Part shown: piece by piece, positions 1 to 60,328 of the stretch
Numbering within the stretch: position 1 is the stretch's first letter
Layout of the letters: each line of letters begins with the position of its first letter
NCBI RefSeq assembly: GCF_000334895.1
Contig: NZ_BAFM01000003.1
Location: 62,001 to 126,000, forward strand
Direction of reading: 5' to 3'
DNA: 64,000 bases
DNA from: Halococcus agarilyticus
Lineage (GTDB): Archaea; Halobacteriota; Halobacteria; Halobacteriales; Halococcaceae
Made by a program: the position numbers and the translations under genes
Notes under the pieces: generated by a model
Told to the model about the DNA's origin: nothing
Databases searched by the model: none
What the model saw: the letters and a program-made list of their open reading frames with translations, nothing else

Positions 1-1
1 C

Positions 2-433
2 CACTGGGACCTCGACTTCTCCCTGAACATCGGAGAGACCAACCGCCGGTTCTTCGCGGCACTCGAAGACAAGCGGATCGTGGGCAAGACCTGCCCCGAG
101 TGTGGCGACGTGTTCGTGCCGCCGCAGTCGGTGTGTGTCGAGTGTTACGTCGAGACCGACGAGTGGATCGAGGTCGAGCAACGCGGTGTGCTCGAGAGCT
201 ACACCGTGTGCTTCTTCCAGTTCGACAAGATGCCGGAGCCGCCGTACGTGACGGGTGTCATCCGTGTCGACGACTCCGCCATCTGCATGATGCACTTCGT
301 CGAGGAGTTGGAGTACGAGGAGCCGATGGATCTGGTCGACAAGCTCGAGAAAGGTGACGAGGTGGAACCAGTGTGGTCCAACGACCGCGATGGCGACATC
401 TTCGACATGGATCACTGGCGGCTGGCGGAATGA
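2..433 (+). CDS. DUF35 zinc-ribbon/OB-fold protein (5' end outside window)
   Basis: The frame is open to the left edge, so the start is missing and 143 codons are visible; an internal GTG at 80 should not be taken as the start because conserved DUF35 residues precede it. A rubredoxin-like zinc ribbon (CPEC and CVEC pairs) is followed by an OB-fold-like acidic domain. In this family DUF35 proteins bind a thiolase-fold partner and help hold acyl-CoA. The gene lies 46 bp before two thiolase-like genes on the same strand, so a complex with them is likely. The ligand is unknown. Confidence 0.85.
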   Translation, partial: HWDLDFSLNIGETNRRFFAALEDKRIVGKTCPECGDVFVPPQSVCVECYVETDEWIEVEQRGVLESYTVCFFQFDKMPEPPYVTGVIRVDDSAICMMHFVEELEYEEPMDLVDKLEKGDEVEPVWSNDRDGDIFDMDHWRLAE

Positions 434-479
434 GGCGGAGTCAGCATGGAGCTAGCCAATCCTACGGAGGCGACTACGG

Positions 480-1619
480 ATGACTGACGTCGCGATCGCC
501 GGCTACGCCACGAGCGGCTTCGCCGGCGAGACGGACGAGTCGGGCAACGAGCTGGTGCTGGAGACGAACATGGCGGCACTCGACGATGCTGGCGTCACCC
601 ACGAAGACCTGGACAGCGTGATATTCACCGGCCAGGATCCCTACGACGGCGCTGCCATCAGCGACGGCCAGAAGGTCGCGACCGCCGCGGCCTACGACAA
701 GCCGATCATGCGGGTCCAGAACGGTGGCGGGATGGCGATACACCAGGGCCGGGCGAAGATCCGGGCCGGCAAGGCCGACGTGGTCACGGTGGTCGCGGCC
801 GACTTCGTGACCGCCGACCCCACGACACTGAGTTGGACCTCCCACGAGGCCCTGTATCACCGGCCGTTCGGGATGAACAATCGACAGTCCTACGGCTTCG
901 TCACCCAGAACTATCTCGACGAGACCGACGCAACCCGAGAGGATCTGGCGGCAGTGGCCGCGAAAAACTACGAGGCCGCCGCGGAGAACCCCGACGCCCA
1001 TCGTCGTGAGGGATACTCGACAGCGGAGGTCTTGGAGTCGGACCCGGTCGTTGGTCCGCTGACGGAGCTGATGCTCGGGCCGATGTCCTACGGCGCTGCC
1101 GTGGTCGTGCTGGTCAGCGGGGCGGTCGCCGACGAGCTCGACGATGTCCCGGGCTCCATCACCGGGACCGGCATGGCGACGGGGAAGTACGAGTACCGAG
1201 AGATGGAAAACCGGCTCCGCCAGCCGACGCTGCGTGATGCCGCAGCGACGGCCTACGACGAGGCGGGAATCGACGCCGCCGACATCGACGCCGCCGAGAT
1301 GGCGACCTACGCGCCGTCGTTCGAGCTCCTGAGCTACGAGGCGCTGGGCTTCTGTGACGAGAGCGAGGGACCGTCGCTGGTCGCCGACGGCACGACGGCG
1401 ATCGACGGCTCGCTTCCTGTCAACGCATCGGGCGGTCCGCTGGCGACGAGCCCGCCGAACTCCGGCGGCGTCTACCGCGCCATCGCGGCCTGCCAGCAGC
1501 TCCAGGGCGATCTCGGCCGGCAGTCCGCCGACCGGGTGCTCCTGGCGGACAACGACATGCATCTGGGCGAGCCTGCGCGGACGGACGCCCTGGTCGTCTT
1601 CGAGGGGGGATCGGCGTGA
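480..1619 (+). CDS. Thiolase-fold protein lacking catalytic residues (Ltp2/SCP2-like), subunit A
   Basis: This 379-residue protein has the usual thiolase length and the closing Asn-Ala-Ser-Gly-Gly segment. The nucleophile loop reads N81-GGG where an active thiolase has a Cys. The HDCF position reads ATYAPS (275-280), and the GHP loop after NASGG (315-319) has no His. It therefore should not do Claisen condensation or thiolysis by the normal route. Ltp2-type proteins that pair with DUF35 and lack the Cys are retro-aldol lyases in steroid side-chain degradation; that function is inferred here. A GGAGG motif sits upstream of the ATG. The stop overlaps the next start (GTGA), which suggests translational coupling. 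Confidence 0.85.
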   Translation: MTDVAIAGYATSGFAGETDESGNELVLETNMAALDDAGVTHEDLDSVIFTGQDPYDGAAISDGQKVATAAAYDKPIMRVQNGGGMAIHQGRAKIRAGKADVVTVVAADFVTADPTTLSWTSHEALYHRPFGMNNRQSYGFVTQNYLDETDATREDLAAVAAKNYEAAAENPDAHRREGYSTAEVLESDPVVGPLTELMLGPMSYGAAVVVLVSGAVADELDDVPGSITGTGMATGKYEYREMENRLRQPTLRDAAATAYDEAGIDAADIDAAEMATYAPSFELLSYEALGFCDESEGPSLVADGTTAIDGSLPVNASGGPLATSPPNSGGVYRAIAACQQLQGDLGRQSADRVLLADNDMHLGEPARTDALVVFEGGSA

Positions 1620-2785
1620 CCCGGGACGTCGGTGCGGTCGGTGTCGGCTACTCCGATCCCGAGACGTTCACCGACTATCGGCTGTCGACCATGTCCAAGG
1701 AGGAGCAGGCCTTCGCGGCGATCACGGCCGCGCTGGAACACGCCGATGCCGATCCCGACGACATCGACGTCGCGCTGTTCTGCACGGTCGACGGCTTCGA
1801 GGGCACGTTCCGCGTCGAACGGACCCTCGAGGTCCTGGGGATGGGCAACGACATCCCGGTGATCAGCATCAACACCGGTGGGACCGCCGGCGGGAGCGGC
1901 GTGAAGGTGGCCTACGAGTACCTCGCCTCGGGAAAATACGACACCGCGCTCGTCTACGGCTCGCCGTCGTTCGACTCGGTGGTCGAGGCCCAGCCGGTGA
2001 TGAACACGAACGCCGACCCGCTGTTCGAGCGCAACTTCGTCACGGCCATCCAGATGGGCGCGCTACCGAGTTCGGGCTACATGGAGCTCTCGGGTGCCAC
2101 CCTCGAGGACTTCGCGAAGGTCGCGGCCCGGAACTACCAGAACGCCGCGATGAACCCGTACGCCCACCGCAACGAGGGCAAGACCGTCGAGGAGGTGCTC
2201 GACTCGCCGATGGTCTGTTGGCCGCTACGGCGGGCGATGACCTGTCCGGTCTCCTCCGGCGCGGCAGCGATGGTGATGGCCTCGGAGGCCACCGCCCACG
2301 AGCACTGCGACACACCGGTCTGGGTCGAGGACATCGACTCGATCAGCAACACCTTCGAGACGGGCTACCGGACCATGGACTGGTTCCCGAAGCTCGAGAC
2401 GCTCGCCGACCGGGTCTACGAGCGTGTGGACGTCGAAGACCCGCTCGAGGAGTTCGACGTCGTGGAGACGTTCAACCCCTACATCCCCTTCGAGATGATC
2501 GAGTACGAGGCGATGGGCCTCTGCGAGAAGGGCGAGGCCAAACACCTCGTTCGCGACGGCGTCACGGCCAGGGACGGCGCGCTCCCGGTCAACGCCTCCG
2601 GCGGGACGCTCGCGACGAACTCCGGGATCTGCGCGTCGCTGTCCCGGCACACCGAGATCGTCCTCCAGCTGATGGGCGAGGCCGGCGAGCGCCAGATCGA
2701 GGGCGCGGAGCGTGGCGTCGCCCAGTCCTGGGGCGCGAACCTGGGCCAGTTCCAGCAGATGGCGATCTTCTCGACGAGTCGGTGA
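1616..2785 (+). CDS. Thiolase-fold protein lacking catalytic residues (Ltp2/SCP2-like), subunit B
   Basis: This 389-residue paralogue of the preceding protein starts at a GTG that overlaps its stop. The nucleophile region is N86-TGGTAGG with no Cys. The HDCF position is ETFNPY (284-289), and after NASGG (326-330) the His loop reads TLATNSGIC. The overlap and shared degeneration suggest a heteromer with subunit A plus the upstream DUF35 protein. The reaction is probably C-C cleavage by retro-aldol chemistry, but a non-catalytic carrier or scaffold role is possible. A hairpin terminator follows at once. Confidence 0.85.
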   Translation: MTRDVGAVGVGYSDPETFTDYRLSTMSKEEQAFAAITAALEHADADPDDIDVALFCTVDGFEGTFRVERTLEVLGMGNDIPVISINTGGTAGGSGVKVAYEYLASGKYDTALVYGSPSFDSVVEAQPVMNTNADPLFERNFVTAIQMGALPSSGYMELSGATLEDFAKVAARNYQNAAMNPYAHRNEGKTVEEVLDSPMVCWPLRRAMTCPVSSGAAAMVMASEATAHEHCDTPVWVEDIDSISNTFETGYRTMDWFPKLETLADRVYERVDVEDPLEEFDVVETFNPYIPFEMIEYEAMGLCEKGEAKHLVRDGVTARDGALPVNASGGTLATNSGICASLSRHTEIVLQLMGEAGERQIEGAERGVAQSWGANLGQFQQMAIFSTSR

Positions 2786-2787
2786 GG

Positions 2788-2813
2788 ATCGCCACCTCTC
2801 CGGTGGCGATTTC
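2788..2813. terminator. Hairpin between convergent genes
   Basis: A perfect 9-bp stem (2788-2796 with 2802-2810) and a 5-nt loop are followed by TTCCCC. It lies just after the stop of thiolase-like subunit B and before the end of the opposing hydroxyacyl-CoA dehydrogenase gene. It could end transcription from either side. The T tract is weak, so the call is structural. Confidence 0.5.
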
Positions 2814-2858
2814 CCCCGGTCGAGTGAGGGGCGGCCCGGCGTCCGCCGTCGACCGGAC

Positions 2859-3713
2859 TCAGTCCTCGTCCCAGTCGTAGAACCCCCGACCCGACTTCAC
2901 ACCGTAATCGCCCGCTCGGACCATCTGCTTGACTAGCTGCGGGGGGCGGTAGGCGTCGCTGCCGAGCTCCTCGGCCATGTACTCGCCGACCTTGACGCGG
3001 GTGTCCCAGCCGTTGTGATCCCCGAGCTTCAGCGGCCCCATCGGGTGGTTGTATCCCAGCTCCATCGCCGTGTCGATGTCCTCGGCGGAGGCGACCCCCT
3101 CCTGAACCATCCGGGCAGCCTCCATGCCGAGAACCAGGCCCAGCCGCGACGTCGCGAAGCCGGGGAAGTCGTCGACGACGATGTGCTCGCGGCCCAGAGC
3201 CTCTGCCAGCTCCTCGGCCCGCGCCAGGGTCTCGTCGCTCGTGTGGTGGCCGGTGACGAGTTCGAGCAGCTTCATCTTCACCGGTGGGTTGAAAAAGTGC
3301 GTACCGATGACCCGCTCCGGGTGCTCGGTGGCGCTCGCGATCTCCGTGATGGACAGCGAGGAGGTGTTCGAGCCGAGAACCACGTCGGGGTCGGTCTTCG
3401 CGTCCAGTTCCTCGAAGATGGTCCGTTTGAGGTCCGTGTCCTCCGGGACCGCCTCCACGACGAACGTCGCCCGCTCGACCACGTCGTCGAGGTCCGTCGT
3501 CCCGGTTACGCGGTCGAAGACGGTGTCTGCGTCGTCGACGATGTCACGCTCCTCGGCCTCGGCCAGATCGTTCCGCAGGCGATCGAGTCCGTCGCTGACG
3601 AGCTCCTCGTCGACGTCGCGCACGATGGCGTCGAACCCCTGCTGAGCGGCGAGCTGAGCGATGCCGGTCCCCATCGTGCCGGCACCGATGACGCCGATGA
3701 CTCTGGATGCCAT
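2859..3713 (-). CDS. hbd: 3-hydroxyacyl-CoA dehydrogenase
   Basis: This protein oxidises a 3-hydroxyacyl-CoA to the 3-ketoacyl-CoA with NAD+. The 284 residues match the short single-function class. The Rossmann motif GAGTMG is at 10-15, an NTSS segment is near 116-119, and the catalytic His139 (GTHFFNP) is 12 residues before Glu151, the normal dyad spacing. It lies downstream of the two MaoC genes on the same strand, with a 134-bp gap. A role in beta-oxidation of a side chain, together with the nearby hydratases, is likely; the natural chain length cannot be read from the sequence. Confidence 0.92.
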   Translation of the reverse strand: MASRVIGVIGAGTMGTGIAQLAAQQGFDAIVRDVDEELVSDGLDRLRNDLAEAEERDIVDDADTVFDRVTGTTDLDDVVERATFVVEAVPEDTDLKRTIFEELDAKTDPDVVLGSNTSSLSITEIASATEHPERVIGTHFFNPPVKMKLLELVTGHHTSDETLARAEELAEALGREHIVVDDFPGFATSRLGLVLGMEAARMVQEGVASAEDIDTAMELGYNHPMGPLKLGDHNGWDTRVKVGEYMAEELGSDAYRPPQLVKQMVRAGDYGVKSGRGFYDWDED

Positions 3714-3847
3714 ACGTCGTTCTCCCGACCCGCAGCAAAAACGTTTGTCCCCGTGACTCCGGGCCCGGCTCGACTCGTCGAGGTTTCACCCCTCGATCGA
3801 CTCGCGGACGACCCTCCCGGTCGCTGCTCTCGGCGAGCGGTCCACGG

Positions 3848-4273
3848 TCACCGCATCGGCAGTCTGGCCGTCGCCGTCCCGCGCACTGTGAGGTCACCGG
3901 AGCCGTCGCGCAGGGCGAGGTCGAACGTGACGAGGCCGTCGCCGTCGATCTCGCACGTCTCGGTTACCGTCGCCGTCGCCGTCACGGTCTGGCCCTCGAA
4001 CACCATGTCGTGGAACCGAACGTCGAACGAGCGCAGGTCCGACGGCGACTCGAGGACGCGGACGACCGGCTGGAGGAGGTACGAGAGGTTCGCCGGGCCC
4101 TGGTTGAGCAGCCCGGGGTAGTCCAGCTCCTCCGCCCGGTTGCGGTCGAAGTGGGGGGGATACGGATCCTGGAGCAGCGCGGCCACCAGCTTCGTGTCGT
4201 CGCCGTGGAGCTCCTCGATCGTCCGCGGTTCGAGTTCGTCGCCCGGCGAGAGGTCCTCGAAACGCACGATCAC
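3848..4273 (-). CDS. MaoC-like (R)-specific enoyl-CoA hydratase half, catalytic type
   Basis: This 141-residue single hot-dog protein carries the hydratase-2 pattern D-P-Y-P-P-H, giving the expected Asp36/His41 pair. Its start overlaps the stop of the preceding MaoC-like gene by four bases (ATGA), so the two are translated together. Many MaoC hydratases are double hot-dog proteins or heterodimers in which one half carries the active site. I infer that this is the catalytic half of a heterodimer that adds water to an enoyl-CoA made by the nearby acyl-CoA dehydrogenase. Confidence 0.85.
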   Translation of the reverse strand: MIVRFEDLSPGDELEPRTIEELHGDDTKLVAALLQDPYPPHFDRNRAEELDYPGLLNQGPANLSYLLQPVVRVLESPSDLRSFDVRFHDMVFEGQTVTATATVTETCEIDGDGLVTFDLALRDGSGDLTVRGTATARLPMR

Positions 4274-4728
4274 GTCCCCTCCATCAGGACCATGTCCGCG
4301 ACCATGTCGAAGACGGGGTCACCCGCCGGCGTCTCGGCGTCGTACGAGAGGGAGACGACGGTCAGACTCCCGCTGCTGCCGTCTTTCTCCTCGACGTCCG
4401 TGACCCGTCCAGTCACCGCCAGCGGCTGGCCGGTCTCGAGCGGGGCGTGAAACTCCACCCGGAGCTGGCCGAGCGCAGCGCCGCTCCGCCAGTCGTCCGA
4501 GAGGCGGCCCATGGTGGCCTCGACGCCACCGGTGGCTTCGAACGCGATGTGCTGTGCCATCGTGTGCGGGACGAGCTGACCCTCCTCGCCCGCGGCTGCC
4601 GCAGCCTCGTCGTACCGAAACGTCGCCTCGTCGTCACGGGTCGCGTCCGCCCACAGGAACGCCTTCCACTCCTCGACGGTAAACTGCCCGGACGGAAGTT
4701 CCGTGTCGGCAAGATCGTCTACGTCCAT
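4270..4728 (-). CDS. MaoC-like hydratase half, non-catalytic partner
   Basis: This is a 152-residue protein from the ATG at 4726-4728. A longer open frame exists upstream, but a TATA-like box 33-40 nt before this ATG and the end of protein-like sequence support this start. It has a hot-dog-like pattern (LVPHTMAQH near 52-60, then a strand-rich half) but no Asp-x-Asn-Pro-x-His motif. It is probably the N-terminal-type half that shapes the acyl pocket. The overlap with the catalytic half mirrors heterodimeric ChsH1/ChsH2-type hydratases, which is an inference from layout. Confidence 0.8.
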   Translation of the reverse strand: MDVDDLADTELPSGQFTVEEWKAFLWADATRDDEATFRYDEAAAAAGEEGQLVPHTMAQHIAFEATGGVEATMGRLSDDWRSGAALGQLRVEFHAPLETGQPLAVTGRVTDVEEKDGSSGSLTVVSLSYDAETPAGDPVFDMVADMVLMEGT

Positions 4729-5050
4729 GCTGTGTGGCGTCGAGTACCGCTGTGGTCGCCATAAACCTTCACCACCGGCCGCGCGACGACGCCAACCCGC
4801 CTCGCATCGGTGGACTCTGGGCCCGGGGGAGGTGTCGCGTCTGGTGCTCGTGGCCAGAACGTGCTGGGGCTCCCGCGGTCCTACGGCGAATGACCGGCCA
4901 GGTCGGCAGTTCGCTTCCGGTGGAACGGCACGTTTTATCTTCGCTCGGCGAGAGATCGACATCCATGGTAGCCAGACAGGTGTGTGTGAGTAGCGATCAG
5001 CGGAGCGCCTCGAACGGTCCGGAAGCCGATGTCGGGTCCTGGAGGAATCG
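4729..5050. other. Divergent intergenic region between MaoC pair and crotonase
   Basis: The 322 bp hold no convincing gene. On the minus strand a TATA-like ggtttatgg at 4759-4767 serves the MaoC pair. On the plus strand a ttttatc at about 4932-4938 may serve the crotonase, leaving a leader of roughly 80-90 nt. GGAGGA at 5041-5046 is a good Shine-Dalgarno for the crotonase ATG at 5051. Confidence 0.5.
4759..4768 (-). promoter_or_regulatory. TATA-like box for the MaoC pair
   Basis: The minus strand reads ggtttatgg about 33-40 nt before the ATG at 4728. The spacing allows only a very short leader. Confidence 0.5.
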
Positions 5051-5866
5051 ATGACCGACGACCTCGCCGCAGCCGGCGACGAATGTTCGACGCTCGCGGT
5101 CGCCACGGACGAACCGGTTGCGAACGCGGTGACGGTCACGCTGGACAGACCGGACACTCGAAACGCCCTCAGTCAGACGCTCCGGACGGAGTTCAAGCGA
5201 GTCTTCGAGGCGATCGAGGCGTCATCGACGCGCGTCGTCGTCCTGACGGGGTCGAACGACTCGCGAGCGTTCGCCTCGGGTGCGGACCTGACGGAACTGG
5301 CCGACCGGACGGCCCTGGAGCAGCGCGAACTGAGCAAGCGACCCCGAATCTACGAGGTCGTCGCCGGTCTCGATCAGCCGGTGATCGGCCGAATCAACGG
5401 GCTGGCGCTGGGTGGCGGCTGCGAGCTGGCGCTGGCCTGCGACGTCCGCCTGGCCGACACCCGCTCGAAGTTCGGCTTCCCGGAGGTGTCTCTCGGGCTC
5501 ATCCCGGGCGGCGGCGGCACACAGCGCTTGACGGAGCTGGTCGGTGTCGGCAAGGCCAAGCAGCTGATCCTCTCGGGAGCCGTCGTCGACGCCGCCGAGG
5601 CGGACGAGCTCGGCCTCGTGGAGTCGGTTCACGACCCGGCCGACCTCGACGAAGCCGTCGCGGAGCTGGTCGACACGATGGCCCAGCACAGCCCGGTCGC
5701 GCTGGAGCTGGCCAAGCGAGCCGTCGACGCGAGCACTCGACTCGGCCGCGACGACGGCATCGACCACGAGGCGGAGCTGTTCACCGTGGCACTTGGCAGC
5801 GAGGACGCCTCGGAGGGCATCGCGGCGTTCCTGGAGGACCGCGAGCCGGAGTGGACCGGGCGCTGA
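5051..5866 (+). CDS. Enoyl-CoA hydratase (crotonase family)
   Basis: This 271-residue crotonase has the oxyanion-hole segments SGADL (76-80) and GLALGGG (117-123). Both general acid/base glutamates of classical hydratases are present: Glu125 in CELA and Glu145 in FPEV. It should therefore hydrate trans-2-enoyl-CoA to (S)-3-hydroxyacyl-CoA, the substrate of the dehydrogenase at 2859. The start follows a GGAGGA motif by 4 nt. It converges on the acyl-CoA dehydrogenase with 28 bp between stops. The window thus has two hydratase types, crotonase and MaoC, which suggests two different acyl intermediates. Confidence 0.9.
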   Translation: MTDDLAAAGDECSTLAVATDEPVANAVTVTLDRPDTRNALSQTLRTEFKRVFEAIEASSTRVVVLTGSNDSRAFASGADLTELADRTALEQRELSKRPRIYEVVAGLDQPVIGRINGLALGGGCELALACDVRLADTRSKFGFPEVSLGLIPGGGGTQRLTELVGVGKAKQLILSGAVVDAAEADELGLVESVHDPADLDEAVAELVDTMAQHSPVALELAKRAVDASTRLGRDDGIDHEAELFTVALGSEDASEGIAAFLEDREPEWTGR

Positions 5867-5894
5867 GGACGAAATCGCGGAGAAAAGACCGTCT

Positions 5895-7031
5895 TCAGGC
5901 GAGGTCCGGCAGACCGTCCTCCTTGAGAACTGCGGCGATCTGGTTCTTCTGAATCTCGTCGGTGCCGGCCGCAAGCCGCCGGCCTCGGGCGAGCCGGTAG
6001 AGGTGTTCGAGGGGGTGACCCTGCTGGTAGCCGTTGGCCCCGTGGATCTGCAGCGACTCGGAGACGATCCGTTCGACCGACTCCGAGGAGAACAGCTTGG
6101 CGAGCGAGGAGCCGAGTCGATCGGGGATCCGTCCCTGTTCGTGGGCCCGGGAGGCGGCGCGGTAGGTCAGTGCCCTGGAGGCCTCGAGACGCTTCGCCAT
6201 GTCCGCTACCTTCCACTCGATGCCCTGGAACTCACCGATCGGCTGGCCGAACTGTGAGCGCGTCTCGGCGTAGTCAAGCGCCTTGTCGAGCGCACATCGG
6301 GCGAAGGAGTTCGCCAGCGTCGCGCTCCCCAACCGTTCCCAGTTGAGGGCCTTGAGCTGCTCCTTGAACCCGTCCGCGCCGCGAGTGAGGACGTTCTCCG
6401 CGGGGACGGCCACGTCGCGCAGTTCGAACTGGGTCTGCTCGTGGTCGGCCATGTTCGTGTAGTGTTGCTGGATCTCGATCCCCGGGTCGTCGAGATCGAC
6501 GATCAGCGACCCGAGGCCCTCCGAGAATTTCACCCAGACGACCGCTGCGCTGGCGTCCTCGAGATTGCTGACCCAGATCTTCTCGCCCGTGACGCTGAAG
6601 CCGTCGCCGTCCTCCTCGGCGCGGGTTCGCATCGATCCGACGTCCGATCCCGATTCCGGCTCCGAGATGGCGATGGCGATCGCCTCCTCGCCGGCGGTCA
6701 CCGGCGGCAGATACCGCTCTTTCGCCGCCTCGGTGCCGAACATCTCGATGGCACGGGGGGCGACCATCTGCTGGGTGTAGAGGAAGTTCGCCGTGTCCGG
6801 ACAGACTCGTCCGACGGCCTCGATCGACAGCATCGCCTCGAACTCCGTCATGCCCCCGCCGCCGTAGGTCTCGTCGATGTTGATACCCATGAACCCCCTG
6901 TCGGCGAGGAGTTCGATGTTCTCCCACGGCGTCTCGCCCTGCCACTCGAACGCGCGCTCGGCGAACTCCGTCTCCGCGATGTCCCGCAACGAGGAGACGA
7001 CCATCTCTTGCTCCGCTGAGAGCGTCTGCAT
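5895..7031 (-). CDS. Acyl-CoA dehydrogenase with unusual catalytic-base position
   Basis: This FAD-dependent enzyme introduces the alpha-beta double bond into an acyl-CoA. It is 378 residues long with the family segments ISEPESGSD (122-130), GEKIWVSN (149-156) and RSQFGQPIGEFQ (258-269). The usual catalytic Glu before GT near the C terminus is Ala355 (AAGTDEI). A Glu at 232 in the segment WERLG matches the place where isovaleryl-CoA and long-chain dehydrogenases carry their base, so activity is plausible. A TATA-like cattatgac near 7057-7065 gives it its own promoter although the cupin gene lies 60 bp upstream. Confidence 0.9.
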   Translation of the reverse strand: MQTLSAEQEMVVSSLRDIAETEFAERAFEWQGETPWENIELLADRGFMGINIDETYGGGGMTEFEAMLSIEAVGRVCPDTANFLYTQQMVAPRAIEMFGTEAAKERYLPPVTAGEEAIAIAISEPESGSDVGSMRTRAEEDGDGFSVTGEKIWVSNLEDASAAVVWVKFSEGLGSLIVDLDDPGIEIQQHYTNMADHEQTQFELRDVAVPAENVLTRGADGFKEQLKALNWERLGSATLANSFARCALDKALDYAETRSQFGQPIGEFQGIEWKVADMAKRLEASRALTYRAASRAHEQGRIPDRLGSSLAKLFSSESVERIVSESLQIHGANGYQQGHPLEHLYRLARGRRLAAGTDEIQKNQIAAVLKEDGLPDLA

Positions 7032-7091
7032 GGCTCCGTCTATCGGTCACTGTGTCATAATGATTGCGGGTGGCGCGGGAGGGACAGTGAG

Positions 7092-7526
7092 TCAGTTCGG
7101 GCTGTGAGGATCGAAGACCTCGTCGTCCTCCCCGGTGCTCGCGCCGACGGCGAGTACGACGCCGGGTTCGTCGCCGACACACCGGTGTCCGTGAGGCTCG
7201 CGGGGCAGGGCGGCGAAGAAGGTTCCCGGACCCACCGTCTCGTACGTCGGATCGTCGGCGCTCCCGAGCTTCAGCGAGAACTCACCCTCGAGGACGTAGT
7301 ACAGCTCCTCCTCCGCGGTGTGGGCGTGAAAGCCGATCTCCTCGCCCGGCCGGAAGTGCCACAGTTTGGCCCCGAGCTGGGCCAGCCCCAGCATCTCGTC
7401 GACAGGGCGGATGTCGACGGTGGGACGGACGTCGTCGCGCTCGCTCAGGTCGACCAGCGGCACGTCGGCGGTGCGGACGACTCGGGGTCCAGCGACCGAT
7501 CGCTCGGACTCGTCGGTGAACTCCAT
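7092..7526 (-). CDS. Cupin-domain protein
   Basis: This 144-residue single cupin starts at the ATG at 7524-7526; a TATA-like ctatttc about 25 nt further upstream supports it over the longer open frame. Motif 1 has the form GEEIGFHAHTAEEELYYVLEG, with the two His and the Glu of the metal site. The second motif has HGH in PREPHGHRC. It could be a small dioxygenase, isomerase or sensor; sequence does not decide. It sits upstream of the acyl-CoA dehydrogenase in the island. Confidence 0.8.
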   Translation of the reverse strand: MEFTDESERSVAGPRVVRTADVPLVDLSERDDVRPTVDIRPVDEMLGLAQLGAKLWHFRPGEEIGFHAHTAEEELYYVLEGEFSLKLGSADDPTYETVGPGTFFAALPREPHGHRCVGDEPGVVLAVGASTGEDDEVFDPHSPN

Positions 7527-7855
7527 GGACCCGCTACGCGCAGTGCCCTGAAATAGGTAGCCCGGGCACGCCGGCCGGATCCCTCGACATCGTCGCTGCC
7601 GCAGTACGGACGGGTGTCGTCGTCGGCTCCTCCGTCGTCGGACACGGCGAGGGGGTGGAAGTGGGAGTACGGCGGGATCGGTGTGCCGTGCAGCGACGTG
7701 GGGGCATCGAGACGGTCTTCGACGAACCGGACGTCGAGTTTCGTGGTTTCGAAGCGGCTCGGAGGAGGAGCCCGATCCACCGATCGACACTCCGTCGTCC
7801 GACCAGCGCGTACCCAACTTATTTATCGTTCGGTGGTGTGGTCCTAGTTTGCAAC
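7527..7855. other. Divergent intergenic region, cupin / SnoaL-like
   Basis: These 329 bp separate two divergent genes. A TATA-like element for the cupin lies near 7550 (minus) and one for the SnoaL-like gene at 7819-7829 (plus). I see no RNA gene or protein-like frame in the middle 7570-7810. Confidence 0.4.
7819..7829 (+). promoter_or_regulatory. TATA-like box of the SnoaL-like gene
   Basis: ttatttatcg lies 28-37 nt before the ATG at 7856, the distance expected for a leaderless or nearly leaderless mRNA. Confidence 0.6.
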
Positions 7856-8308
7856 ATGCAAGAAGTTGACGACCCCGCGGCGATACTGACGGTGTCGAAC
7901 CTCGTACACTGTTACATGCGGCGGATGGACAAACACGACCTGGATGGCGTCCTCGAACTCCTGCACGACGACTGCGCCATCGACTACGGGGACTTCGGCC
8001 TCTACGAGGGGCAGGACGAGGTCTCGGACTTCCTCGAAGCGTACATCGAGGGTGAAACGGGCATCCTCGACTCGTTTCACCTCGGTATCAACCCGTGGGT
8101 CACCGCCGACGGCGACACCGCGATCGGTCGCTGGCACTTCCTCGATCTGGGCCACGTCGAGGGCATCGGTGCCGCCTGGCTCGCCGGGTTCTACGAGATC
8201 GAGTTCGTCAAGAACGACGACGAGTGGCTCATCGAGAAACTCACCTACGACGCCAAATACTTCTCGCCCTACGACGAGGGCTGGGTCGAGGAACCGATGG
8301 CCAACTGA
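7856..8308 (+). CDS. SnoaL-like / NTF2-fold protein
   Basis: This 150-residue protein starts at the ATG placed by the TATA box at 7819-7829. The order of a helical N terminus with VHCYMRRMDKHD, then VLELLHDDCAIDYG and a strand-rich C half ending in a Trp/Tyr-rich tail, matches SnoaL-like NTF2 folds, which include steroid isomerases, polyketide cyclases and aromatic-ring dioxygenase small subunits. No partner dioxygenase is visible. Its place in the acyl-CoA island suggests that it acts on or binds a bulky hydrophobic intermediate, but the function is not known. Confidence 0.7.
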   Translation: MQEVDDPAAILTVSNLVHCYMRRMDKHDLDGVLELLHDDCAIDYGDFGLYEGQDEVSDFLEAYIEGETGILDSFHLGINPWVTADGDTAIGRWHFLDLGHVEGIGAAWLAGFYEIEFVKNDDEWLIEKLTYDAKYFSPYDEGWVEEPMAN

Positions 8309-8504
8309 CGCCGCTCCGACGGCGGTTTCTGCGGCCGCTTGCCGGTCCGTTGTCGTGGTAGAGCGATCGATGGAACGGTCTCCGGCGGGTTCGACGATCG
8401 ATGGAACCCCGCTGCCGAGGGGCGTCCGCCATCGAGTGTCGACGAGCGGGGCGACCGTGGAGAGATCAGCTACACCGTTCGACGTCACACGCCACGAACG
8501 GGGG

Positions 8505-8518
8505 CAAAAGCTTATACC
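8505..8518 (+). promoter_or_regulatory. BRE/TATA promoter of the acyl-CoA ligase
   Basis: caaaag followed by cttatacc lies about 26-32 nt before the ATG at 8543. The purine-rich BRE-like sequence next to the TATA box is a good haloarchaeal promoter match. Confidence 0.65.
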
Positions 8519-8542
8519 CCTCGTTTACAACGAAAGACACGC

Positions 8543-10171
8543 ATGGATTTCAATTTCGACCTCGGGGTAGAGGATCAGCAATCGTTCATCGACCGATCCC
8601 GACAGTTCAACGTCGGCGATCTGATGCGGAAAGCCGCTCGGATGTACGCCGACGACGTGGCGGTGAGCGAACCCGGGCGGGAGGTGACGTACGCCGAGTT
8701 CAACGAGCGGGTCAACGCACTGGCGAACTCGCTTCTGGAACGGGGCTACGAGAAGTCGGAGGCCAGGGTGGCGGTCCTCGCGGAGAATCGGGGGGAGTAC
8801 ATCGAACCGTACTTCGCCGCAGCGAAGGTCGGCTTCCTCGTTCCGGCGCTGAACTGGCGGCTCGAGGAGGAGGAGCTGGTTCACTGTGCCAGCCTGGTCG
8901 AACCGGACGCGCTCATCGTCTCCGAGCAGTACCGGGAGAAAGCGAGCTGGATCGAAGAGGGACTCGAGGACCCACCAGACATCATCCACCTCGACGACGA
9001 CGGCGACGACGGATACGAGACGCTGATCGAGAACGGGTCGACCGACGAACCCGCCCCCGACCACGAGGTCGATCCCGAACAGGGTCTCGTCGTACTGTAC
9101 ACCTCGGGGACGACCGGGCTTCCGAAAGGCGTCGTCATCAGCCACCGGGCGTGGCTCGCTCGGGGGTACACCTACACCATCGACTGGAACCTCGAGCGAG
9201 GCGACGGTTGGATCGCGTGGGCTCCCCTCTTTCACATCATCTCGGCCGACGCGCTTCCGGCGGTGTTCTCGCTCGGTGGGACGTACTACCCGCCGAACGG
9301 GTTCGACACCGAACGCATCGTCGACATCCTGCTGGAGAAGGACAACGGGGGGATCGGGTGGCTGTTCCTGCTCCCGGGTGTCGTCAACCAGTTCCTCGAC
9401 TACCTCGACGAGAACGACGTCGACGTGGAGGACATGCGTGAGATCCGGGAGATCGGTGCGCTCGTCGACCTCGTGGACCCGAAGAAGGTCAAGCGGGTGA
9501 CCGAGAAGTTCGACATGTCGTTCACGAACTCCTACGGGGCGACCGAAGACGCGAACGTGCTCAGTGCCGGAAACAACATCCCGGTCGGTGTGCTTCCCAA
9601 CGACGACGACCTCGCGAAGGTCGAGTCCTCGTACGTGGACCTGAAACTGATCGACGAGGAGTGGAACGAGGTCGAAGGGCGGGGTGAGCTCGCCGCTCGC
9701 GGTCCGACGCTCTGTAGCGGATACATCAACAACCCCGAGGCCAACGAGGAGGACTTCAACGACGGGTGGTTCCGGACCGGCGACATCTTCGTCTACAACG
9801 ACGACGGAAGCTACAGCTTCGTCAACCGACGGAAGTACCTCATCAAGAGTGGCGGCGAGAACATCTATCCCGCGGAGCTCGAGAAGGTCCTCCTCCAGCA
9901 CGAGGAGATCGAAGAGGCGACGGTCGTTCGAGTGTCCGACGAGAAGTGGGGGGAAGTGCCCCGAGCGATCGTCAGCACGTTCAGCCCCGACGGGGTCGAC
10001 ACCGACGAGCTCATGGGCATGCTGAGGGAGCAGTTGGCGAACTACAAACTCCCCCACTACCTCGAGATCATCGAGCCGGAGGACTTCCCCCGCTCCGCGA
10101 CGGGCAAAGTGGTCCGAGAGGAAGTCGAGGAGTGGACGGTCGACGAGACGAACCGGGTTCGCGAGGTCTGA
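8543..10171 (+). CDS. AMP-forming acyl-CoA synthetase/ligase
   Basis: This 542-residue enzyme of the ANL superfamily activates a carboxylic acid to its CoA thioester with ATP. The phosphate loop YTSGTTGLPKG is at 186-196. Later come the YGATE segment, the DGWFRTGD motif, KYLIKSGGENIYP, and near the end SATGK with the catalytic Lys. The start is fixed by the TATA box 26-32 nt upstream. As the only ligase of the island it is the likely entry step for its substrate. The pocket residues do not let me tell a fatty, aryl or steroid acid. Confidence 0.9.
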   Translation: MDFNFDLGVEDQQSFIDRSRQFNVGDLMRKAARMYADDVAVSEPGREVTYAEFNERVNALANSLLERGYEKSEARVAVLAENRGEYIEPYFAAAKVGFLVPALNWRLEEEELVHCASLVEPDALIVSEQYREKASWIEEGLEDPPDIIHLDDDGDDGYETLIENGSTDEPAPDHEVDPEQGLVVLYTSGTTGLPKGVVISHRAWLARGYTYTIDWNLERGDGWIAWAPLFHIISADALPAVFSLGGTYYPPNGFDTERIVDILLEKDNGGIGWLFLLPGVVNQFLDYLDENDVDVEDMREIREIGALVDLVDPKKVKRVTEKFDMSFTNSYGATEDANVLSAGNNIPVGVLPNDDDLAKVESSYVDLKLIDEEWNEVEGRGELAARGPTLCSGYINNPEANEEDFNDGWFRTGDIFVYNDDGSYSFVNRRKYLIKSGGENIYPAELEKVLLQHEEIEEATVVRVSDEKWGEVPRAIVSTFSPDGVDTDELMGMLREQLANYKLPHYLEIIEPEDFPRSATGKVVREEVEEWTVDETNRVREV

Positions 10172-10246
10172 TTCGGTCCCGATTCGACCCTCGGAACGTT
10201 TCTCGCCCACCGAATACTGCACGAAACGCGAACACCCTCGGGCGAT

Positions 10247-10261
10247 CCAAAGCATTATACT
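10247..10261 (+). promoter_or_regulatory. BRE/TATA promoter of the SDR gene
   Basis: ccaaagcattatac ends about 30 nt before the ATG at 10292, so the downstream SDR gene has its own promoter although it follows the ligase on the same strand. Confidence 0.6.
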
Positions 10262-10291
10262 GGAGGGTGATAATGGGTAACCCGGATCAAT

Positions 10292-11053
10292 ATGAGAAAC
10301 TTGGTAGACGGTAAAGCGACCGTCGTGACAGGGGGTGCTCAGGGGATCGGGGAAGCGACCGCCCTCAGGTTCGCCGAAGAGGGTGCGGACGTCGTGGTCG
10401 CCGACGTCGACGAGGAGGGCGGTCACGGCACCGTCGACGCAATCGAGGACGCCGGCGGGAGCGCCGTCTTCGTCGAGACGGACGTGTCGGAGGCGGCGGA
10501 GGTGCAGACCATGATCACCAGGTGCGTCGAGGAGTTCGGCGGAATCGACGTCCTGTTCAACAACGCCGGCATCGATGGACCGCTGGAGAACATCGTGGAG
10601 TACGACGAGGACGGGTTCGATCGAGTGATCGACGTGAACCTCAAGGGAGTCTGGCTCGGGCTGAAATACGGCATTGAGGCGATGCTGGCGGACGGCGGCG
10701 GCAGCATCATCAGCACGTCTTCCATCGGCGGACAGGTGGCGGTGCCCGAGTACAGCGGATACGGCGCGTCGAAAGCCGGCGTGAGCCTCATCACGAAGAG
10801 TGCTGCACTCGAATTTGCGACCGAGGGAATTCGAGCGAACGCCATCGCACCCGGTCTCGTGGAGACGCCGATGGTCAACGATATCATGGAGGAGAACCCG
10901 GAGATGGAAGAGCAGTTCCGGAACATGGAACCGATGGGCGGACTCGCACAACCGAAAGAGATCGCGAACTCCGTCCTGTTCCTGGGCTCCGACCTCGCGT
11001 CCCGCGTGACGGGTCACACGCTCGCTGTCGAAGGCGGCTACCTCTCCCAGTGA
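10292..11053 (+). CDS. Short-chain dehydrogenase/reductase (SDR)
   Basis: This 253-residue classical SDR has the cofactor motif GGAQGIG, the NNAG segment, the active-site Ser (STSSIGG) and YGASK with the catalytic Tyr and Lys, and ends in a GGYLSQ tail. An Asp after the second strand (ADVDEE) points to NAD(H). In the island it probably oxidises a hydroxyl on the side chain or ring of the substrate. SDR specificity cannot be read from the sequence. Confidence 0.88.
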   Translation: MRNLVDGKATVVTGGAQGIGEATALRFAEEGADVVVADVDEEGGHGTVDAIEDAGGSAVFVETDVSEAAEVQTMITRCVEEFGGIDVLFNNAGIDGPLENIVEYDEDGFDRVIDVNLKGVWLGLKYGIEAMLADGGGSIISTSSIGGQVAVPEYSGYGASKAGVSLITKSAALEFATEGIRANAIAPGLVETPMVNDIMEENPEMEEQFRNMEPMGGLAQPKEIANSVLFLGSDLASRVTGHTLAVEGGYLSQ

Positions 11054-58340: not shown

Positions 58341-58715
58341 TCAGACCGGCTCGAACACGGGGGCCGGGTGGTCGTCCGTGACGAGGACGTCGGCGAACGA
58401 GACGCGATCGCCGATGTCGACCGTGCCGTCGATCCGTCCCAGCACCTTGGCGTCGCCGAGCCGGACGACGGCGACCTGGTACTCGCCCGCGAACCCCTCG
58501 GGGGGGACGGCGACCGTGGTCTCCGAGTGGACGATCCCGTCGGTGGGGAGCGTGACGGTGGCGAGCGTCCGCGAGCCACACCGTGCGCACGCGGCCTTCG
58601 GGGCCGCGGTCGTGTGGCCGCACTCGGCGCACTCCTGACCGACCAGATCGCCGTCGCGGAGGCGGTCGGCCCACTCGACGTAATCGAGCCGATCGGTCGT
58701 GGCGTCGTCGCTCAT
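58341..58715 (-). CDS. DUF35 zinc-ribbon/OB-fold protein
   Basis: This 124-residue protein has zinc knuckles CAEC and CARC (residues 29-46) and a C-terminal OB fold. It overlaps the stop of the thiolase gene by four bases. Such DUF35 proteins bind their thiolase partner and can channel acyl-CoA. It is the complete counterpart of the truncated DUF35 protein at the left edge of the window. Confidence 0.9.
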   Translation of the reverse strand: MSDDATTDRLDYVEWADRLRDGDLVGQECAECGHTTAAPKAACARCGSRTLATVTLPTDGIVHSETTVAVPPEGFAGEYQVAVVRLGDAKVLGRIDGTVDIGDRVSFADVLVTDDHPAPVFEPV

Positions 58716-59878
58716 CGCCGGGCCTCCATCACCGTGACGACGGTGGTCGCGGCATCGCCACCCAGGTTGTGTGCGACCGCACGCTCGGGGTCGTCGAGCT
58801 GGCGCTCGCCGGCCTCGCCGCGGAGCTGCTCGGTGAGTTCGACCAGCTGTGCCGTGCCGGTCGCGCCCAGGGGGTGACCCTTCGCCTTCAGCCCGCCGGA
58901 GGGGTTCACGGGCACGTCGCCATCCAGGGCGGTCCGGCCCGCTGCGGCAGCCGGACCGCCCCCGCCGTCCTCGAACAGGCCGAGCGCCTCGGTCGCCATC
59001 ACTTCAGCTCCAGTAAAGCAGTCGTGGATCTCCGCGAAGTCGATCGCGTCGGCGGTCGTTCCCGCCTGGTCGTACGCCTGGCTCGCCGCATCCCGGGCGG
59101 CCTGGGTCGCCGGCAGGTCGACCTTGTCCGCGAGCGGCACCACGTCGGTCGCGTGGCCGACGCCCGCCACGTCGACCGGGTTCTCGAAGCTTTCGGCAGC
59201 CTCCTCGCTGGCGACCACGACCGCCGACGCACCGTCCGAAAACGGACAGCAGTCCATCAGATGGAACGGATCGGCGACGATCGGCGAGTCGAGCACCTTC
59301 TCCACGGAGGTCTCGCGGCCGAAATGCGCGCGCGGGTTGAGCGTCCCGTTGTAGTGGTTCTTGACCGCGACCTCGGCGAGGTGTTCCTCGGTAGTACCGT
59401 ACTCGTGCATGTGGCGTTTCGTGAGCAGCGCGAACACGCCGGGGAAGGTGAGACCGGCGGGCTGTTCGTACTGGCGGTGGGCGGCGCTGACGAACACCTT
59501 CGTCATCGCGCCGGTGCCGAGGCCGGTTTCGGGCGTGCAGCGCTCGACACCGCCGGCGAGCACCACGTCGTGGCGGCCGGACTCGACCGCCTCGACCGCG
59601 TGTTTGAACGCGGTCGCCGAGGTGGCACACGCGTCCTCGAAGCGCTGGGCGGGGACGCCCGTACAGCCGATGTGCGAGGCGAGCGTCGGCGCGAGGTGGG
59701 TGTCGTTCTCGGTCATCCCGCCCATCGCGTTGCCGAAGTAGAGCGCCTCGATTTCGGGGGACTCGACCCCGGCATCGTCGAACGCGTCGAACGCGGCGTC
59801 GGCGAACAGGTCCGGCAACGGCCGTTCGTGAACGCCGAACTTCGTCATTCCCGCACCGACGATGGAAGCTCGTGCCAT
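58712..59878 (-). CDS. Archaeal thiolase (acetyl-CoA acetyltransferase, SCP-x type) with complete active site
   Basis: This 388-residue thiolase has all catalytic residues: Cys84 in DACATS, His285 and Cys287 in EIHDCF, and His335 in GHPLGATG. It condenses two acetyl-CoA or thiolyses a ketoacyl-CoA. Archaeal acetoacetyl-CoA thiolase works with DUF35 and HMG-CoA synthase for isoprenoid synthesis, so this one may serve the mevalonate pathway or beta-oxidation. It overlaps the DUF35 gene and is the active reference for the degenerate pair at 480-2785. Confidence 0.92.
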   Translation of the reverse strand: MARASIVGAGMTKFGVHERPLPDLFADAAFDAFDDAGVESPEIEALYFGNAMGGMTENDTHLAPTLASHIGCTGVPAQRFEDACATSATAFKHAVEAVESGRHDVVLAGGVERCTPETGLGTGAMTKVFVSAAHRQYEQPAGLTFPGVFALLTKRHMHEYGTTEEHLAEVAVKNHYNGTLNPRAHFGRETSVEKVLDSPIVADPFHLMDCCPFSDGASAVVVASEEAAESFENPVDVAGVGHATDVVPLADKVDLPATQAARDAASQAYDQAGTTADAIDFAEIHDCFTGAEVMATEALGLFEDGGGGPAAAAGRTALDGDVPVNPSGGLKAKGHPLGATGTAQLVELTEQLRGEAGERQLDDPERAVAHNLGGDAATTVVTVMEARR

Positions 59879-60328
59879 GAACTGGTGTACGACACCATTG
59901 TCTATCAGGGTTGTGATGTCGGCAGCCACGTTCGCCGGCTCGGGCGTCGAACTGTCTGTCGCTGACGGATCACGAACCGGCGATACCGTCGTCGAGGAAG
60001 CGTCCTTCCGGCGGGGAACCACGACGGCGGAGCGGTTCGTCCTCCCGCGTAGCCACTTCGTGCTTGGGTTCTGATCGTGTGTAGTACGAGGAGCAGGGGA
60101 GGGTCGCGAGTGATGCCAGAGGCTCGCAACGGACGGTGAGGCTGCAGGAGCTCGTCGGGCCGCCCGTGTTTCCCCTTCTCCCTACGGCACAGGTCACGGA
60201 CAAACGACAAAGAACGGGTGCATGGATGATAAGGCGAGGGTCGTCCGTACATCACGATCCACAGCCGCTCGGATCGGCGCGATAGTGATCGATACCAGGT
60301 GTATGAACGCGATCGGTCCGTCCTTGCC
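59879..60328. other. Intergenic region thiolase / sensor kinase
   Basis: These 450 bp carry no convincing gene. No clear TATA box for the thiolase operon is seen. The short frames on both strands have no conserved features. Confidence 0.4.

Follow-up and report, generated by a model that had tools for sequence, protein, structure and literature searches.

The window analysed here, a stretch of 64,000 nucleotides from Halococcus agarilyticus (positions 62001-126000 of contig NZ_BAFM01000003.1, below C3, of a 3.48-Mb haloarchaeal assembly), opens with a trio of genes encoding a DUF35 protein and two distinct thiolase-fold proteins, subunits A and B, that both lack the nucleophilic Cys of thiolases. 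On the basis of residues, gene neighbourhood and phylogeny, we see about an even chance that this trio is a retro-aldol-type acyl-CoA C–C lyase acting after a MaoC hydratase, which would be encoded by the gene pair close by:

1..433, forward strand: DUF35 subunit, zinc ribbon plus OB fold (PF12172 and PF01796, over cut-off)
480..1619, forward strand: subunit A, divergent Cys-less thiolase-fold protein (PF22691/PF00108)
1616..2785, forward strand: subunit B, Cys-less thiolase-fold protein (PF22691/PF00108)
3848..4273, reverse strand: MaoC hydratase subunit with Asp/His dyad, D36 and H41 (PF01575)
4270..4728, reverse strand: partner MaoC-like subunit, FAS1-type dehydratase region (PF13452; start set by orthologue comparison)

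Active-site residues and phylogeny of subunits A and B

The complete DUF35 gene (C3:61936-62433) starts 64 bases before the window, which cuts off its first 22 amino acids, and the nearest solved relatives of its product are 3irb, 6esq_E and the ChsH2-DUF35 chain 6ok1_B. The start of the B gene overlaps the end of the A gene by 4 bases (480-1619 and 1616-2785), and the same overlap of 4 bases is found between the two MaoC genes, which suggests coupled translation and a fixed stoichiometry within each pair. Both A and B match 6ok1, 6hsj and 7pxp at 1e-15 to 1e-30 in sequence searches, and thus have the SCP2-type thiolase fold.

The loss of the thiolase machinery is clear from comparison with an ordinary SCP-x type thiolase encoded upstream in the same gene island. 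Where that protein carries NACAASG, HDCF and SGGLKSKGHP, A has Q[NS]GGG, ATYA and SGGPLATSPP, and B has TGGTAGG, FNPY and SGGTLxTNSG. The term Cys-less used in a preliminary description of this DNA is therefore correct, and the HDCF and GHP motifs have disappeared as well. In an alignment of 31 A and B proteins (16 of them B) with reference enzymes, Gly occupies the nucleophile position in every one of the 16 B sequences (G89) and also in haloarchaeal A. The residues T87-G88-G89, H184, P288 and N335 are invariant in these 16 proteins, and the pocket loop of B, TGG[TA]xGG, is like the last three residues unchanged between archaea and bacteria. In the aldolase Ltp2 the catalytic residues are Tyr294 and Tyr344 (YDHF), in Sal they are Tyr302 and Cys304 (YDCY), and the Gly that both have where the nucleophile used to be (Gly89 in Sal) has been proposed to contact the beta-hydroxyl group (PMC12329534). 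Neither haloarchaeal A nor haloarchaeal B has a Tyr at the AYIHG site of Ltp2 in this alignment. As far as aligned residues can tell, an aldolase-like Gly pocket is present and the known acid/base pair is absent.

A maximum likelihood tree of 58 sequences (IQ-TREE, LG+C20+F+G4) places A and B in clades of their own, with support of 97/91 and 94/88, respectively, and the active thiolases in a third clade (97/92). Ltp2, Sal and close YDxF proteins cluster separately, five of the six with support of 100/100, and this group includes neither A nor B, which lie outside the active thiolases as well; the tree contains long branches (A of Simplicispira and Cupriavidus) and a partial BbsB reference, and its root is not known. 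A grouping with active thiolases, which would have refuted the earlier view, is thus not seen, and motifs and tree alike set A and B apart from active thiolases. The label Ltp2-like, given at the same time, has to be dropped, since YDHF and the second Tyr are absent and both clades lie outside the Ltp2/Sal group. Together, A and B appear to represent a lineage of their own among the DUF35-linked enzymes with a thiolase fold, one that has two subunits.

Distribution in haloarchaea and bacteria

Subunit A is rare, being present in 6 of 391 sampled Halobacteria, host included, and missing from seven other sampled genomes of the host genus. For B, a search of 292 Halobacteria gave four genomes beyond the host at 79-93% identity, with the next match at 33%. 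Other collections added Halorarius litoreus and a plasmid of Natrinema gelatinilyticum as carriers of A, and copies are also plasmid-borne in Haloterrigena turkmenica (pHTUR01) and Natronosalvus amylolyticus. In every haloarchaeal copy examined, DUF35, A and B are contiguous on one strand, with the other genes shuffled and inverted around them; the MaoC pair is near the trio, and ABC importers adjoin some copies. An amidohydrolase encoded upstream occurs in the same six genomes as A, plus one more distant copy. This overlap would arise by chance with a probability of about 1e-12 if the genomes were independent, which is not fully the case, as two genera contribute two genomes each. Orthologues of the acyl-CoA dehydrogenase at 5895-7031 are found in 31 of the 391 genomes, all six A genomes among them. 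The recurrence of the trio and many of its neighbours in shuffled order is more than chance; the gene set is conserved as a group, and the island is mobile.

Some copies have neighbours of their own. In N. gelatinilyticum (L056 549-6146) a small zinc protein and subunits resembling hydantoinase/acetophenone carboxylase are encoded near the trio, which suggests that a ketone is carboxylated in a neighbouring step. The N. amylolyticus copy includes a methylmalonyl-CoA-mutase-family gene (L055 29145-30845), and an open reading frame (ORF) similar to it is present in the N. hydrolyticus copy.

A strict peptide-pattern scan of genome contigs recovered only Halorarius and Natronosalvus, and bacterial counterparts were therefore sought via plasmids. 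The best bacterial B matches are on Rhodococcus megaplasmids, where the B gene follows a gene annotated as hypothetical protein and precedes an OB-fold (DUF35) gene, so that the carriers, e.g. R. ruber MSA14, R. opacus DSM 44186 and R. rhodochrous GD02, show the annotation series hypothetical, thiolase family, OB-fold. The trio is contiguous in all Rhodococcus plasmid loci examined; here, as in the haloarchaeal loci, the A and B genes overlap or abut. Used as a tblastn query, the R. ruber hypothetical protein (A') matched only Rhodococcus and Haloterrigena A, and profile alignment with hhalign identified full-length homologues in both cases: A and A' with 99.9% probability and 31% identity over 354 columns, B and B' with 100% probability and 37% identity over 383 columns. 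Simplicispira has the order A'-B'-DUF35 as in Rhodococcus, with A' annotated as a thiolase, and in Cupriavidus an A-like ORF lies immediately upstream of B. The description of the module as haloarchaeal was thus too narrow.

The MaoC pair is close to the trio on several Rhodococcus plasmids, in several cases with a CoA ligase. In the catalytic MaoC subunit D36 and H41 are invariant in haloarchaeal and Rhodococcus proteins, and the partner (4270-4728) has no evident Asp/His dyad, judged by eye only. A direct sequence match between the island pair and ChsH1/H2 in the PDB was not found. In R. qingshengii VT6 two acyl-CoA dehydrogenase genes, two MaoC genes, A', B' and DUF35 form a single row, and of the arrangements seen this one comes nearest to the steroid side-chain cassette of actinobacteria. 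Taken together, the family spans archaea and bacteria, is mobile and coherent, and its chemistry would most likely be retro-aldol.

Proposed reaction and alternative explanations

If the carbon atom in the beta position carries a branch or is part of a ring, hydration gives a tertiary alcohol. Oxidation of this alcohol to the 3-ketone that thiolysis requires is impossible, which makes a retro-aldol cleavage a sensible solution. The MaoC pair would hydrate an alpha,beta-unsaturated acyl-CoA, and DUF35, A and B, presumably assembled in one heteromeric thiolase-superfamily complex, would bind the 3-hydroxyacyl-CoA and split off acetyl- or propionyl-CoA together with a ketone or aldehyde. The remainder could be processed by the short-chain dehydrogenases (SDRs), the ligases, ordinary beta-oxidation genes and the active thiolase encoded upstream. 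The active site would be a composite of A and B, with a Gly backbone pocket as in Ltp2 and Sal and different acid/base residues.

The combination of a MaoC pair, a DUF35 protein and a Cys-less thiolase fold is known only from hydratase-aldolase systems, in which DUF35 bridges the MaoC hydratase and the aldolase. The resemblance to ChsH1-ChsH2-Ltp2 (actinobacterial steroid side-chain aldolase/hydratase, PDB 6ok1) that had been pointed out earlier is supported by the Cys-less fold with Gly instead and by the DUF35 partner, and may extend to a two-subunit MaoC part in which only one half would be catalytic. Ltp2, however, is a single homodimer that carries YDHF and another Tyr, whereas the island encodes distinct A and B proteins without those residues, in separate clades, and a free-standing DUF35 protein. 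The proteobacterial bile-acid aldolase Sal/Shy (PDB 9myr) is likewise DUF35-linked and Cys-less, with Gly at the nucleophile site, but the positions of Tyr302 and Cys304 are Phe and Pro in haloarchaeal B and Ala and Tyr in A. The benzoylsuccinyl-CoA thiolase BbsAB (PDB 7pxp) also combines DUF35 with a thiolase subunit, of which B is a clear sequence relative, but BbsB retains the active Cys and GHP, and a second thiolase-fold subunit is missing. The archaeal thiolase/HMG-CoA synthase/DUF35 complex (6esq) is, like the trio, a multi-subunit assembly of the thiolase superfamily held by DUF35; its thiolase is active, and the partner is HMG-CoA synthase instead of another thiolase-like protein. Within the island, the upstream pair (active thiolase and HMG-CoA-synthase-like/DUF35 fusion) is nearer to this complex, although its synthase-like part has no Cys. 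The Rhodococcus trios have homologous A, B and DUF35 proteins in the same tight arrangement and differ in that DUF35 comes after B and that Baeyer-Villiger-type flavoproteins and paired acyl-CoA dehydrogenases surround them. Searches of the open-access literature returned no account of the A-B pair or the haloarchaeal island, and the papers found give no function for the Rhodococcus trio.

Several observations weigh against a retro-aldol function. The base Tyr of Ltp2 and Sal is Phe in 13 of the 16 B proteins (motif FNPY in haloarchaeal B, with ATYA/AAYS in A), the position of Sal Cys304 is Pro288 in B, and Tyr277 of A, which takes that position, is confined to close orthologues. An acid/base pair could not be named from the 31-protein alignment, and AlphaFold2 models, built from alignments of three sequences, were too poor to place the active site (pLDDT 33 and 36 for A and B). 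On a plasmid of Simplicispira suum (L065 6535-10770), the gene directly after the trio encodes a true Ltp2-type YDHF protein (E 1e-84 to 6ok1), which has a separate OB-fold partner; this arrangement argues that the trio does something other than the Ltp2 step. A pocket without the known acid/base pair leads either to a site shared between A and B that uses other residues, or to different chemistry. Acyl transfer or retro-Claisen cleavage as in PhlABC, decarboxylation, or hydrolysis of a 3-ketoacyl-CoA would be such chemistry, and we regard it as unlikely, if worth serious consideration. Many enolate reactions take place on the thiolase fold, the DUF35-linked relatives include PhlC and benzoylsuccinyl-CoA thiolase, and the residue set that is new in B (T87, H184, N335) fits a new reaction. 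Acyl transfer of the PhlC type is expected to require a nucleophilic Cys, and Gly at that position in a MaoC/DUF35 setting fits aldolases better. CouO is an amidohydrolase. The island encodes two amidohydrolases, and beta-ketoacyl-CoA hydrolases of the CouO/HpeF type provide a non-thiolytic release of acetyl-CoA (PMC9618137).

It is quite unlikely that A and B have no catalytic role and serve DUF35, the hydratase or the upstream thiolase as a scaffold or as regulatory partners. Such a role would agree with the loss of known catalytic residues from both proteins and with the strong divergence of A, whose Rhodococcus counterpart is annotated merely as hypothetical; the invariance of the B pocket loop, H184, P288 and N335 from archaea to bacteria argues for catalysis, as does the slower evolution of haloarchaeal B as compared to A (79-80% against 62-64% identity to the distant orthologues). 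A biosynthetic island, forming C–C bonds, is very unlikely. Aldol and Claisen reactions are reversible, and relatives of 6esq are biosynthetic, but the ligases, two acyl-CoA dehydrogenases, crotonases, IclR regulator and importers by some copies look catabolic, as do the patchy, plasmid-borne distribution and the presence of a related block in the phenylacetate cluster of Haloferax mediterranei. That the trio is a true thiolase that cleaves 3-ketoacyl-CoA with CoA, as BbsAB would suggest from its DUF35 pairing and the similarity of B to BbsB (E 3e-30), is hardly credible, being contradicted by the tree and by the nucleophile Cys and GHP that BbsB has and A and B have not.

Retro-aldol cleavage thus remains our preferred reading. 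A wider proposal, held more tentatively and judged somewhat short of an even chance, is that the trio represents a third, undescribed lineage of DUF35-linked C–C-cleaving enzymes with the thiolase fold, with two subunits and a composite site that would dispense with the Cys/His of thiolases as well as with the Tyr of Ltp2 and Sal. Mobile catabolic islands would carry this lineage in archaea and bacteria alike, and it would open beta-branched or alicyclic acyl-CoAs to haloarchaea.

The catabolic island and its possible substrate

All genes named in the preliminary description are present and match their families. They had been presented as one 11-kb block; the genes are indeed there, but the island is about 25 kb in size (C3 48.5-73 kb), window positions 1-11053 being its right half and some 13.5 kb of related genes lying upstream of the window start. 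The remaining genes of the right half are:

2859..3713, reverse strand: 3-hydroxyacyl-CoA dehydrogenase (PF02737/PF00725; PRK09260 top match, below its cut-off)
5051..5866, forward strand: crotonase-fold enoyl-CoA hydratase (PF00378)
5895..7031, reverse strand: acyl-CoA dehydrogenase (PF00441/PF02771/PF02770)
7092..7526, reverse strand: small cupin (PF07883)
7856..8308, forward strand: SnoaL/NTF2-like protein (PF13577)
8543..10171, forward strand: AMP-forming acyl-CoA ligase (PRK06187-type match, below its cut-off)
10292..11053, forward strand: SDR (PRK06172-type match, below its cut-off)

The upstream part contains the following genes, in coordinates of the upstream stretch L005, to which 44,000 is added to obtain C3 positions:

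L005 4550-5587, reverse strand: F420-type LLM oxidoreductase
L005 5781-7439, reverse strand: second CoA ligase
L005 7552-8754, forward strand: active SCP-x type thiolase
L005 8751-10199, forward strand: HMG-CoA-synthase-like/DUF35 fusion
L005 10246-11040, forward strand: SDR
L005 11222-12097, reverse strand: crotonase
L005 12462-13241, forward strand: IclR regulator
L005 13300-14481, reverse strand: amidohydrolase, within this ORF
L005 14285-15562, reverse strand: second acyl-CoA dehydrogenase, within this ORF
L005 15688-16245, reverse strand: second SnoaL protein
L005 16306-16737, reverse strand: second cupin
L005 16815-17762, reverse strand: second amidohydrolase

The two acyl-CoA dehydrogenases (5895-7031 and L005 14285-15562) are encoded by separated genes, and each has a full-length family match. 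A pair of the ChsE1/ChsE2 type, to which the preliminary description referred, is not supported, as they appear to be complete enzymes instead of adjacent half-site subunits. For the amidohydrolases, the PDB yielded one uncharacterised relative (3irs) for one and none for the other.

Further proteins with altered active sites were encountered. The HMG-CoA-synthase-like/DUF35 fusion and its orthologues have ST.AG at the site of the missing catalytic Cys; the fusion is found on 32 plasmid records, those listed all being haloarchaeal, often beside a thiolase. The crotonase at L005 11222-12097, which is kept in island copies, by eye lacks both usual catalytic Glu residues (GAGCDFALACD; REGFVGMGLVPG) and therefore possibly does not act as a hydratase. 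A thiolase-like protein that is common in haloarchaea (genomes L014-L019, L021, L023, L024, L026 and L028-L036), a sister of PDB 4yzo, combines Ser instead of Cys at the nucleophile position (QTSSSGG) with HDMF and an unaltered GHP, and is another possible non-thiolase. A second DUF35 and thiolase pair, at window positions 58341-60022, has an intact-looking active site (DACATSA, HDCF, GHP).

With respect to the substrate, steroids are unlikely, since neither a KshA C-terminal domain nor a dioxygenase of the 2,3-dihydroxybiphenyl type was found in the host genome. The phenylacetyl-CoA epoxidase family is represented in that genome, on another contig. In the phenylacetate region of H. mediterranei a thiolase, HMG-CoA-synthase-like/DUF35 fusion, LLM protein, amidohydrolase, IclR regulator and cupin also occur together, and this shared block implies that part of the island is a general lower pathway for aromatic or alicyclic acyl-CoAs. 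The other homes of the acyl-CoA dehydrogenase, among its 31 genomes of the 391, were varied CoA-transferase and keto-acid settings that gave no clear answer. The Baeyer-Villiger-type flavoproteins near the Rhodococcus trio, in one case with a limonene-epoxide-hydrolase family gene, fit the breakdown of cyclic ketones or terpenoids. Our best guess is a beta-branched or ring-bearing acyl-CoA.

Ordinary beta-oxidation is blocked by such acyl-CoAs; only a few enzymes are known to bypass the block through a retro-aldol step, and most of these are specific for steroids. If the proposed function is correct, archaea and the catabolic plasmids of Rhodococcus possess a second solution, hidden under the annotations hypothetical and thiolase, in which a C–C bond may be cut in a manner not yet described. 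It would provide a test case from nature for the construction of a new active site across two subunits of the thiolase fold, and would account for the mineralisation of these compounds in brines and soils.

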